In this document: piece by piece, positions 6,237 to 36,634 of the stretch | Position numbering within the stretch: position 1 is the stretch's first letter | Layout of the letters: the number at the start of each line of letters is the position of its first letter | Source: Gemmataceae bacterium | GTDB taxonomy: Bacteria > Planctomycetota > Planctomycetia > Gemmatales > Gemmataceae | Assembly (NCBI GenBank): GCA_009692005.1 | Contig: SHZZ01000037.1 | Location: 1 to 38,599 of the forward strand | Direction of reading: 5' to 3' | Length of the DNA stretch: 38,599 nt | Notes under the pieces: model-generated | The model's input: the letters and a program-made list of their open reading frames with translations, nothing else | Told to the model about the DNA's origin: nothing | The model's database searches: none | Position numbers and translations under genes: made by a program

Positions 6237-6611
6237 TTATTTTTTCTGATCGTGGCCGCTCATTTGCGATAGCGCCAGAATCGTTCCCATAGGGCCGGGA
6301 AAACTCTGCGTCTTGCAGGAAATGGGTTCATCCAGGGAAATAAAATCCACCTCATGCCCCACTGCGGGGACCCCCGCCACAGTGTCCATGGTCCGGGAGG
6401 CATCCAACCCTGGATAGTCGCTTCGCAAGGCTTCTAATGTGGTCTCTGCCATCTCCTCAGGGTCGGGCATTTCCTTGTCGCACAAGATCATCACGAAAGC
6501 CGTGCCCGGGCTTTGCACCGTTACGACCCAGCCTTGGGGAGTATCTTTTTTTTCCAGGTTCCACATGGCGGGGTAGGAGAAGGACAAGCCATCCTCGGAA
6601 AACTGTTTCAT
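6237..6611 (-). CDS. Small protein of unknown function, possibly PsbP/DcrB-like
   Basis: A 124-residue protein, no signal peptide. It opens with FSEDGLSFSYPAMWNLEKK, continues with WVVTVQSPGTAFVMILCDKEMPDPEEM and a helix AETTLEALRSDYPG, and ends with a strand-rich part. 'Phe-Ser-Tyr-Pro..W' followed by a beta-alpha-beta pattern is the layout of the PsbP/DcrB/DUF1795 superfamily of small alpha/beta proteins, but the similarity is only at pattern level. ATG 6611 starts 24 bases downstream of the tRNA-Leu gene on the same strand, with a weak ribosome site, so it may be read from the tRNA promoter. It runs convergently towards the glycine-rich protein gene. Confidence 0.6.
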   Translation of the reverse strand: MKQFSEDGLSFSYPAMWNLEKKDTPQGWVVTVQSPGTAFVMILCDKEMPDPEEMAETTLEALRSDYPGLDASRTMDTVAGVPAVGHEVDFISLDEPISCKTQSFPGPMGTILALSQMSGHDQKK

Positions 6612-6634: not shown

Positions 6635-6939
6635 TGCTGGAGGAGGGACTCGAACCCTCACGGAGTTTTCACCCCTTCGGATTTTCATACCACGATGGTT
6701 TTCACCACCCGTCAAGGACGGTTCGTGGCCTGGACTTTCCCTTGACCTTGGCGCAAGCGCTTTAGGTCCCAGCCACCAAGTCTCTACACCTTCATGGGAA
6801 ACCCATGTTTGGCTCGGGATTGCCGCCGCCCGTGGCGCTGCGGTTCCCCCGACTTCGACTGGATTCACGCGGGCGGTTTCCCCTCCCGGTGCTCAAAACC
6901 TTTTAAGTCCGATGCGTCTGCCGATTCCGCCACTCCAGC
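6635..6939 (-). tRNA. tRNA-Leu(UAA), interrupted by a group I intron
   Basis: Exon 1 is 6905-6939 and exon 2 is 6635-6685 (transcribed right to left); joined they give an 86-nt leucine tRNA. The acceptor stem is GCTGGAG with CTCCAGC and discriminator A. The D arm reads TGGCGGAATCGGCAGACGC, typical of tRNA-Leu. The anticodon stem is TCGGA/TCCGA around the loop CTTAAAA, giving anticodon UAA. The long variable arm is GGGGT-GAAA-ACTCC and the T arm is GAGGG-TTCGAGT-CCCTC. CCA is not encoded. The anticodon loop is only complete after removing 219 nt between U34 and A35. UAA is read by few other tRNAs, so loss of splicing would probably be harmful. Confidence 0.96.
6686..6904 (-). ncRNA. Group I self-splicing intron in tRNA-Leu(UAA)
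   Basis: 219 nt, no ORF. By hand I can pair every core helix (intron numbering, nt 1 = base 6904). P1: exon CUU with GAG at 11-13, giving the U·G wobble at the 5' splice site. P10: GGUUUU (5-10) with the start of exon 2. P3: CCAGUC (43-48) with GGCUGG (131-136). P4: CGGG with CCCG. P6a: CAUGGG/CCCAUG (98-103/107-112). P7: GACUU (123-127) with AAGUC (168-172). P8: GACCU/AGGUC (137-141/157-161). P9: CCACGA/UCGUGG (177-182/210-215). The last base is G (omega-G). CAATCCCGAGCCAA and GAAGGTGTAGAGACT match, almost base for base, segments I remember from the cyanobacterial tRNA-Leu intron, so this is subgroup IC3-like. Confidence 0.93.
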
Positions 6940-34162: not shown

Positions 34163-36634
34163 CTACTTTTTCTCGCCGCCTACCTTGGCAGCTTTTTCTC
34201 GTTCTTCTTGCTCCAACCGCAGTTTTTCCAAACGGCTGAGGCGCTTTTCCATGGGCTTGGCTGGCTCCACTTTGGGCATTGGCCCTGGCTTGGCCATCGG
34301 CGTAGGAGCATTCGCCACCACCTTGGGGGGCGGCGGCACATCCACACGCAGTTCTGTCGAGCCGACCTGGTGCACCACTTCTTCGCCGTTTTTCATGACC
34401 ACGGCGGTGCAGAAGAGGTTGCGGTGCTGTCCTGGTTGAGCGGTTTTTTCGGTGTCGATCTTGAAAAGAATTTCCTTCGTCTGCGCCGTGATCTCCAGGA
34501 TGGGTGTCACCACTCTGGGAGGAAGGCCAACCAATTGCACCTTGGCCGACCCTTCAAATGGAGTGGTCTGCGTCACCTTGCATAGGATTTCCGTGGTTTT
34601 TCCTTGTTCAACGGAACCTCGCTCCAAAGCGAATTGGAAAAAGGGCGGCGCCACTTCCAGGGTAAACAATTGCGAGGATACCCACATCGGCCCGCTGGGA
34701 CCGTTGCCGAGCGCGTTGAACGCTGTCTTCCATTTCCTGACCGGAGCGCCCCCCGAAGCGTTGATGGGGAATAGTCCTTCGGTTTGGTTTTCCGCGATGG
34801 TAATGGCTGAGGCGCTGCCGATCCCTGGCGGATTGTAAACCGGGTAGACGGTAATGGCGCCCTTGAAGCCATCGCGGCGTTCGACCGCGATCTTCAAATT
34901 CATCCGGCCGTTTTGCACCAATGGCACCTTGGGTTCGACCACGCGGATGGAAAACGGCGCTGGCTCCGCCAGGGCAATTCCCAGCCTGTCGATTTCATAG
35001 CGCCAGTAAACCGACTGCCCGGGCGCGCCATAGATCAGGTCGGCGGTTTGCGAAAACAGGGGCTTGGCGATCACTTTGGGGTCTGTGGGGACCGCCTTGA
35101 TGGCGGCGTAGGAACCGGCGGGCTGAGCGTCTGCCTTGGCTTCAAACACCACGGCGAAAGTGTCGAGCCCGTTGGAGATCGTGTCCACATCCATGGTGAT
35201 GCCGGGGGGAAGGTTCTCCGCGATCAGTTTCAGATCGCCCCCAAATTCGCGCCGCGATGCGGTCATCAAAGCCGCGTAGCGGTTCCCCTTGTGGATGGCA
35301 ATCGCCTGGCGCTCTTGGGAGAATTGCTCCACCCTGGGCAGGGAAGTCACCGTGTAGGGGGTCACCGGGTTGAACTCCACCCGGTAGACATAATCCGGGC
35401 CGCCTTTTTTCAAGTGATCGGTGATGGTCAGGATGTAATCTTTGTCATCGAGGGTGACGCGGAAATTGCTGTCCGGTCCGCCGCTGTCATCGTTGGAGGC
35501 AACGGCGCCGCCGCCCGCGATTGAAAGAGTCATGACGGGGTCCAACTGCGAGCCAATTCTGCGGGCAAAGCACTCCACATCGAACGCTTTCCCCTTAATT
35601 CCCTTGAATTTGAAGGTATCCACATCGGCATTGGCTTGGATGATGCCATTGAAAACCGTGGGGAAGGCTCCCGGGGTGGCTTTATCGGGGGTATCGTTCG
35701 GTTCGACTTCGAGGGTGTTGCCCTCTTGGGAGACGCGAAAGGGCATTCCGGAAGGAGTAACCCCGCCCGCGTCGTGGGGGAAGACTTTGAAGCCATTGCT
35801 TGCTGCCAGGGGAAGCTTGACTTTTTGCTTGAAGGAGCCGATGGGATCGCCGAGGCAGGTGAATTCGACCTCTTCACCAGCCTTGCCTCCCACGGGATAA
35901 ATGGCGGTGGGGCGAGGGAAACTTCCCACATGAAGCCGGTAGCTACAGGCGCCATTTCCGGCGTAGGCGCTTTCACGCACTTGAACAATGTAGTTGCCAT
36001 CGGCTGGGGCCACGATGGAGGCGAAGCAATCCTGCCCGGCCAGAGGCGTGTCATCCCGCGACGACATTTCAAAACGCTTGGAATCCAGAATCGCCACATA
36101 AGGGTCAAACAGGGTGGTTCCCAGGCGCATGCCTTCCACCTCGGCGCTAAGACGCTGGCCTTTTTTCATCTCCACCACGAAGTAATCGACATCTTCGTTG
36201 TTGGCCACGCCAACCACCGTGGTTTGCAGAGGAATTTTTTGCGGCGTAAGGAATTCGCTGTTCGGTTCCTTTTCCTCAATCGCCGGATAGGGGCCGACAT
36301 AGAAGGTCCGCATTTCGCTGATTCCCGAGGCGGTGCGCAGGCGCACGGCGTACTCGCCCATCTCGGCGTCGGGGGCAATCTTGACCGTGGCCTTGACCTG
36401 GCCATCGTTCACCGCCACCACTTTCGTTACTTGAATACCGGGTTTGTAAAAGAGGAGTTCCTTGCCATCAGCCAGGCGCCCGCCCGATAGAATAATTTCC
36501 ATTTCCGTTCCGCGCTGCCCGCCCCGGGGAGAGATGCTTCCCAGGCTGGGCGAGGCGCTCCAGGCTTGCGACACAAGCCATAAAAGGGAGAATGAGGAAA
36601 GGAAAAAGGCGCTGATGCGTTTAAGGGAAACCAT
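34163..36634 (-). CDS. PPC-domain (pre-peptidase C-terminal) surface protein
   Basis: 823 residues. Signal peptide 1-27, then an IPT/TIG-type start (LGSISPRGGQRGTEMEIILSGGRLADGKELLFY) and two or more PPC-type beta domains with the typical opening EKEPNSEFLTPQKIPLQTTVVG / NNEDVDYFVVEMKKGQRL and EVEPNDTPDKATPGAFPTVFNGII / ANADVDTFKFKGIKG. A long beta-rich part follows, then a Pro/Lys-rich tail (PPPPKVVANAPTPMAKPGPMPKVEPAKP in parts) and a basic coiled C-terminus. PPC domains sit on secreted planctomycete proteins next to DUF1549 and DUF1501. It lies 13 bases before the Big2/DUF1549 gene, so an operon is likely. The role may be surface attachment. Confidence 0.9.
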   Translation of the reverse strand: MVSLKRISAFFLSSFSLLWLVSQAWSASPSLGSISPRGGQRGTEMEIILSGGRLADGKELLFYKPGIQVTKVVAVNDGQVKATVKIAPDAEMGEYAVRLRTASGISEMRTFYVGPYPAIEEKEPNSEFLTPQKIPLQTTVVGVANNEDVDYFVVEMKKGQRLSAEVEGMRLGTTLFDPYVAILDSKRFEMSSRDDTPLAGQDCFASIVAPADGNYIVQVRESAYAGNGACSYRLHVGSFPRPTAIYPVGGKAGEEVEFTCLGDPIGSFKQKVKLPLAASNGFKVFPHDAGGVTPSGMPFRVSQEGNTLEVEPNDTPDKATPGAFPTVFNGIIQANADVDTFKFKGIKGKAFDVECFARRIGSQLDPVMTLSIAGGGAVASNDDSGGPDSNFRVTLDDKDYILTITDHLKKGGPDYVYRVEFNPVTPYTVTSLPRVEQFSQERQAIAIHKGNRYAALMTASRREFGGDLKLIAENLPPGITMDVDTISNGLDTFAVVFEAKADAQPAGSYAAIKAVPTDPKVIAKPLFSQTADLIYGAPGQSVYWRYEIDRLGIALAEPAPFSIRVVEPKVPLVQNGRMNLKIAVERRDGFKGAITVYPVYNPPGIGSASAITIAENQTEGLFPINASGGAPVRKWKTAFNALGNGPSGPMWVSSQLFTLEVAPPFFQFALERGSVEQGKTTEILCKVTQTTPFEGSAKVQLVGLPPRVVTPILEITAQTKEILFKIDTEKTAQPGQHRNLFCTAVVMKNGEEVVHQVGSTELRVDVPPPPKVVANAPTPMAKPGPMPKVEPAKPMEKRLSRLEKLRLEQEEREKAAKVGGEKK

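Follow-up and report, generated by a model that had tools for sequence, protein, structure and literature searches.

The window, a stretch of 38,599 nucleotides from a Gemmataceae contig analysed at its full length, carries on its minus strand, at 6635-6939, a tRNA-Leu(UAA) gene that is interrupted by a group I intron of 219 nt between U34 and A35. Judging from sequence comparisons, it is highly probable that this is a self-splicing intron derived from a homing lineage, for which phages are the likely carriers. The coordinates, the intron length and the insertion site had been given exactly by the initial annotation, and both the spliced tRNA and the empty alleles of relatives agree with them. 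The parts of the locus are the following:

6905..6939, minus strand: 5′ exon of tRNA-Leu(UAA), 35 nt, with the last bases ...GGACUU; the spliced form is Leu(taa) according to ARAGORN.
6686..6904, minus strand: group I intron, 219 nt, terminal G at 6686; supported by RF00028, the covariance model R1 and the empty sites.
6635..6685, minus strand: 3′ exon of tRNA-Leu(UAA), 51 nt, from AAAAUCC... to the discriminator A; CCA is unencoded.
6237..6611, minus strand: small conserved gene directly downstream of the tRNA, a marker of the orthologous locus.

With default settings, ARAGORN made no tRNA call across the window, and with introns permitted it reported c[6633,6940], with the junction shifted by a few bases and the gene miscalled as Ser(aga). 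When the exons were spliced in silico, the same program recognised tRNA-Leu(taa) with all arms present and a long variable arm, which bears out the earlier claim that the tRNA folds only once the 219 nt are removed. An intron of this kind can thus cause a default tRNA search to list such a genome as being without tRNA-Leu(UAA). The empty alleles in related species break and restart at the predicted splice sites to the base, and the 5′ exon has the same sequence as the intron-less alleles L295, L297 and L299. A gene like the one at 6237..6611 lies 3′ of the intron-less tRNA (L295-L297) and also 3′ of an interrupted one (L077). A consensus scan for sigma-70 promoters and terminators near the tRNA-Leu(UAA) gene found none.

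The search with the Rfam group I model RF00028, a check put forward by the initial annotation, gave a match to the entire model at 6724-6915 on the minus strand (33.4 bits, E 8e-7), though under the gathering score of 50, and because of this shortfall the intron was missed in a default Rfam scan of the window. The gathering score serves as a cut-off for curation and does not define the class biologically, and most Gemmataceae tRNA introns likewise score below it. With R1, a covariance model built from tRNA-Leu introns, the window intron scored 229 bits, its own sequence being included in the training set. The structure derived from the window sequence was further evaluated against 22 aligned tRNA-Leu introns. 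In the window, each pair proposed for P1, P2, P3, P4, P5, P6/P6a, P7, P8 and P9 is a standard one, and 91.8% of the cells pair across the 22 introns, compared to 32-48% in controls with the partner displaced by 1-3 columns. Double changes occur in 43 of the 67 pairs, and the covariation score was 0.387 versus 0.136 after shuffling, with 0 of 500 shuffles as high. The minimum free energy of the intron is -91.3 kcal/mol (z -2.42). The structural elements, all on the minus strand, are listed from the 5′ splice site onwards:

6892..6907, minus strand: P1 and its extension, with the splice-site U.G wobble 6905/6894.
6866..6891, minus strand: P2 with a GAAA tetraloop, GAAA being kept in 22/22 introns.
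6857..6862, minus strand: 5′ strand of P3, partner 6769-6774; 100% paired, double changes in 4/6 pairs.
6814..6852, minus strand: P4-P5 domain, with P4 formed by 6848-6852 and 6814-6818 and P5 at 6823-6843; P4 100% paired.
6788..6813, minus strand: P6/P6a hairpin, short in the window; 98-100% of cells paired.
6778..6782, minus strand: 5′ strand of P7, the guanosine-binding helix (pseudoknot); 100% of cells paired.
6769..6774, minus strand: 3′ strand of P3, from the covariation alignment.
6744..6768, minus strand: P8, with a tetraloop-receptor-like CCUAA... motif; main helix 100% paired.
6733..6737, minus strand: 3′ strand of P7, from the covariation alignment.
6690..6728, minus strand: P9 region with a GNRA-capped hairpin (GAAA in the window); terminal hairpin 100% paired.

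Complete pairing (100% of cells in 22/22 introns) thus extends over P3, P4, P6, the P7 pseudoknot and the main P8 helix. The C-G, U-A and U.G pairs of P1 are likewise invariant in 22/22 introns, a U-A pair of P7 is replaced by A-U, G-C or C-G across relatives, and the GNRA loop of P9 is present in those tRNA-Leu introns that were inspected. The intron ends in a terminal G, and a P10 is possible, as the U run of the intron used in P1 can also pair with the AAA of the 3′ exon. The helices proposed from the sequence alone (P1 with its U·G pair, P3, P4, P6-P9 and P10) and the terminal G are therefore supported, and P2 and P5 are present too. The window intron differs from its relatives at five sites that are conserved in ≥90% of them; one of these, an A to G change in J4/5, might lower activity without breaking any helix.

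At the level of sequence and predicted fold, these data confirmed the element as a group I intron of IC3 type, belonging to the tRNA-Leu(UAA) kind found at the cyanobacterial and plastid site. It shows the anticodon-loop insertion, the GAAA-capped P2, the GNRA-capped P9 and the IC3-like core sequence of P7 and J7-3, the subgroup name following that of the Azoarcus and Anabaena introns. The IC3-like core pattern recovered tRNA introns from many phyla, so that such introns occur far more widely than in the cyanobacteria and proteobacteria on which the initial annotation had focused. Its further point, that 219 nt is among the smaller sizes for group I introns, needs revision, and compactness was rejected as a special feature: lengths of 212-222 nt are common among bacterial tRNA-Leu introns.

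The tRNA inventory, obtained by searching the entire 4.19-Mb genome with Rfam (99 contigs, estimated completeness 100%), comprised 44 other tRNAs, with the Leu anticodons CAA, CAG, UAG and GAG. The initial annotation had named a second, intact tRNA-Leu(UAA) elsewhere as evidence that would speak against it; searched for genome-wide, none was detected among the 44 other tRNAs, a missed gene being conceivable in a 99-contig assembly. UUA codons are in use, accounting for 23 of the 3390 codons in nine ORFs of the window. Since the interrupted gene is the only tRNA-Leu(UAA) detected and UUA codons are used, it is probably needed by the cell, and this in turn argues for effective splicing. It is extremely improbable that 6635-6939 is a dead pseudogene and that the tRNA is made from another gene: every helix is intact, the exons agree with the intron-less alleles, no other UAA tRNA was found at an estimated completeness of 100%, and the intron-bearing relatives are likewise without a detected intact copy, which together outweigh the division of the genome into 99 contigs and the Rfam score under threshold.

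A survey of other Gemmataceae for an intron at the same site, proposed along with the initial annotation, was carried out with R1 and RF00028 over 95 genomes, and 18 of them carry an intron in tRNA-Leu(UAA). The carriers are the window genome (g1), g34, 7/7 genomes of g36, 2/4 of g16 and seven in g7, a genus that is presumably Gemmata. The uninterrupted anticodon stem-loop GGACTTAAAATCC was found in 50 of the 95 genomes, with no overlap with the 18 carriers; genomes outside these two sets were assigned to neither class. Across 392 genomes sampled from the Planctomycetota, a tRNA-Leu(UAA) intron was found in the window genome only, under strict filters that weak members may escape, and the remaining matches were flanked by exons of other tRNAs or were unassigned.

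Empty and full versions of the same locus were found in close relatives. In g16, the genomes G037 (empty) and G038 (full, ORF-less) have flanking genes in common, with the aspartyl-tRNA synthetase gene downstream, and their mature tRNA-Leu(UAA) sequences are identical; flanking genes are also shared by G040 (empty) and G039 (full). As these genomes form two sister pairs in the HemL tree, G037/G038 and G039/G040, intron presence has switched at least two times within this genus. An empty site was also seen in the g30 genomes, at a locus matching that of the window: the 5′ exon is identical and the gene downstream is similar. Optional presence at an orthologous locus, a hallmark of homing introns, was therefore found for both g16 pairs and for g30 versus the window.

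Other group I introns were noted in the course of the survey. In planctomycetes, tRNA introns were seen in CAU-anticodon, Asn- and Thr-like genes (L034, L059, L217-L226, L230 and L231), several of them with long inserts; two of the CAU introns, L217 and L219 from Gemmataceae, showed no recognisable endonuclease-like ORF, the adjoining ORFs being ribosomal protein genes. Gemmataceae also contain group I introns of a different type (L032, L033, L036 and L060), apparently outside tRNA genes, and that of L060 adjoins 23S rRNA-like sequence (ACTATGACGGTCCTAAGGTAG). In Actinomycetota (Microbacterium, Nesterenkonia, Tsukamurella, Frankiaceae), group I introns are located in tRNA-Asn(GUU) (L088, L089, L108, L120, L122, L141, L155 and others), and a default tRNA search may overlook the tRNA-Asn of genomes carrying them.

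The intron of G039 is 705 nt long, and its extra length corresponds to a 152-aa HNH ORF (Pfam HNH_3, 4.2e-6) in the P6 loop, that is, at the position of the P6/P6a loop in the window intron. The ORF is preceded by an AGGAG sequence, the P6a around it forms a perfect 10-bp helix, and its stop codon is a TAG within the intron core (GTGTAGAGAC). In G020, of the g7 clade, the P6 loop contains an HNH relic consisting of the last 18 codons (CPNCHVLTDNYRGKNKKV) with the upstream frame interrupted; the relic scores 87 and the best shuffle 45, with 0 of 300 shuffles reaching the score of the relic. The window intron has no ORF for a homing endonuclease, and its minimal P6 hairpin is without a relic. 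A relic in the P6 loop of the window intron or of most Gemmata introns was rejected, no score exceeding those of shuffles except in G020. Other HNH relatives in Gemmataceae were discarded as intron ORFs, having no adjoining intron core. In three Gemmataceae (L302, L303 and L304), an HNH gene with 37-43% identity to the G039 ORF adjoins an intact tRNA-Leu(CAA) or tRNA-Leu(UAG), an arrangement that would fit an enzyme family acting on tRNA-Leu genes. In a further one (L305), an HNH gene lies between tRNA-Ile and tRNA-Ala, in the usual spacer of the rRNA operon.

Relatives of the G039 HNH protein were found in viral contigs and phage genomes. The best match, 60% identical, is encoded by LR756511.1, an uncultured phage of 595 kb, where the gene sits inside the P6 loop of a tRNA-Leu(UAA) intron and overlaps the core with its C-terminal end as in G039. 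Scanning IMG/VR with the core pattern gave at least 120 loci, at least 79 of which resemble tRNA-Leu(UAA) introns; in silico splicing was possible for 44 of the matches listed, and 44/44 fold as Leu(taa). HNH relatives inside or just beside the tRNA were present, among these listed matches, at 40/79 Leu loci versus 0/41 other loci, and after removal of near-duplicates at 14/30 versus 0/22 (p 9e-5). IMG/VR contigs are predicted viruses, some of which may be host DNA, while LR756511.1 and the Gordonia phage Daredevil are records independent of this collection. Among the IMG/VR loci L344-L463, L345, L347, L361, L398, L404 and about 75 further ones among the matches listed have IC3-type introns in tRNA-Leu(UAA) genes, and half of these have an HNH gene in the intron or just 3′ of the tRNA. 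The cultured Daredevil (MH590603.1) carries at 555-804 on the minus strand (L545) a group I intron that is absent from the annotation and interrupts a tRNA-Asn-like gene; it clusters with bacterial tRNA-Asn introns (bootstrap 100 with L103). In the uncultured crAss-like phage cr116_1 (MT774389.1; L546), an IC3-like intron core is found at ~35147-35202, just 3′ of the annotated DNA polymerase gene.

A maximum-likelihood tree without phages was computed from 91 introns and 213 sites. The clade of the window intron, GemA (genera g1, g34, g36 and g16), grouped with a tRNA-Leu intron from Anaerolineales (bootstrap 99) and with an intron from a gammaproteobacterium, the g7 introns were placed apart from GemA, and the cyanobacterial introns formed a separate clade of their own (bootstrap 100). 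When phages were included, the g7 introns joined LR756511.1 (bootstrap 99) and then two further phage introns (92), with GemA as the sister of the g7 and phage group at a bootstrap of 47. The union of the g7 introns with LR756511.1 at 99 lends good support to transfer between phages and the g7 genus, and phage transfer appears plausible for GemA. AU tests with full constrained searches rejected none of the alternative groupings (p 0.08-0.62). The comparison with cyanobacterial introns suggested in the initial annotation was thus made, and a grouping of GemA with them was absent from the ML trees yet unrejected (p 0.25). The proposal of two independent origins for the two Gemmataceae intron clades was dropped, as full constrained searches no longer reject their common ancestry; the rejection had appeared only with quick constrained trees.

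Descent from an intron predating the split of cyanobacteria and planctomycetes, with loss from most planctomycetes, appears improbable. The window genome is the sole carrier among the 392 Planctomycetota genomes under the strict filters, presence differs inside single genera, and the Gemmata introns cluster with a phage intron rather than with cyanobacteria, although the insertion site is the cyanobacterial one and neither GemA with cyanobacteria nor the monophyly of all tRNA-Leu introns (p 0.08) was rejected. A single acquisition followed by vertical inheritance in g1, g34, g36 and g16, with all differences due to losses and phages uninvolved in this clade, is possible but rather unlikely: the intron order in GemA (g34; g16; g1+g36) agrees with the HemL tree and the mature tRNAs of the empty G037 and the full G038 are identical, but at least three whole-intron losses at the exact splice sites would be required, and the intact HNH ORF of one member implies recent or ongoing homing.

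We therefore lean, by a modest degree, towards the window intron being an ORF-less member of a group of mobile, phage-disseminated tRNA-Leu(UAA) group I introns, in which an HNH endonuclease related to phage enzymes would insert the intron into intron-less tRNA-Leu(UAA) genes of both bacteria and phages, the ORF then decaying and the intron being kept or lost. Weighing against the overall reading of a self-splicing intron from a homing lineage are the RF00028 score under the curated threshold, the five departures from conserved sites including that in J4/5, the bootstrap of just 47 for GemA with the phages, the consistency of the GemA branch with the HemL tree, to which vertical descent plus loss is also suited, and the 99-contig assembly, in which a second gene could be missed. 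The lineage around the window intron looks mobile, given the presence/absence pairs, the HNH ORF and the phage copies. In the mechanism we propose, the precursor RNA would fold into the catalytic core, external GTP held in P7 would attack the 5′ splice site marked by the U.G pair in P1, and the freed 5′ exon would attack after the terminal G, joining the exons into the tRNA required for reading UUA codons and restoring the anticodon loop. The lineage would spread, or have spread, by homing, a reading suggested by same-site relatives with an HNH gene or its relics in the P6 loop: the HNH enzyme would cut an intron-less tRNA-Leu(UAA) and repair would copy the intron in. Phages would be the likely carriers, since phage tRNA-Leu genes contain elements of this type. 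The window copy would have lost the mobile stage and, being ORF-less now, is probably kept since its tRNA is needed.

The tRNA-Leu(UAA) intron is a standard example of an ancient intron common to cyanobacteria and plastids. The window intron resembles this Anabaena type in host gene, U34/A35 site, P1-P9 layout, GAAA-capped P2, GNRA-capped P9 and lack of an ORF; it differs from the cyanobacterial introns in sequence, being ~53% identical to that of Laspinema over the aligned length. The Azoarcus BH72 tRNA-Ile and Synechocystis tRNA-fMet introns, both IC3, share the ribozyme class and the anticodon-loop position but sit in other tRNAs, and the Synechocystis intron, which encodes I-Ssp6803I, is a precedent for a homing endonuclease encoded in a tRNA intron. 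The phage intron of LR756511.1 has the same site and fold, and its HNH ORF in P6 ends in the conserved GTGTAG as does that of G039; unlike the window intron it is phage-borne, and it is nearest to the Gemmata introns in the tree, not to the window clade. A 2007 compilation recorded no ORF in 242 plastid trnL entries, in contrast to the HNH-bearing members of the planctomycete lineage, and a single endonuclease in bacterial tRNA introns, in tRNA-fMet (PMC1995217). I-Ssp6803I is of the PD-(D/E)XK family (PMC1995217), whereas the planctomycete and phage tRNA-Leu lineage has HNH proteins. Reviews describe bacterial tRNA group I introns from cyanobacteria and from alpha- and beta-proteobacteria (PMC4033280), with cases in fMet and Ile2 tRNAs (PMC8450103). 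Putative group I introns in tRNA-Leu(UAA) of the gammaproteobacteria Beggiatoa and Thiomargarita are comparable in gene and putative type, the excerpted text of that source reporting neither an endonuclease nor empty and full sites (PMC4853749). According to a 2014 review, the phage introns then known were all in protein-coding genes (PMC3984707). In the open-licence literature we found no published report of a planctomycete tRNA-Leu intron, in keeping with the initial annotation, and this literature likewise yielded no report of tRNA-Leu introns that contain an HNH gene or that occur in phages.

The ribozyme class, the host gene and the insertion site are thus already known, and the HNH-bearing lineage around the window intron is the more novel part. 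In a distant phylum, and at the textbook site, it presents several stages: an empty site, an intron with an endonuclease, one whose endonuclease is decaying, and one without an ORF, so that ancient inheritance or transfer becomes a question that can be tested by comparing sister species and assaying a single enzyme. In Gemmataceae, what is generally regarded as an ancient type of intron looks mobile and, if dissemination by phages is true, the 'ancient' site of the textbooks would hold some tRNA-Leu(UAA) introns that arrived recently.
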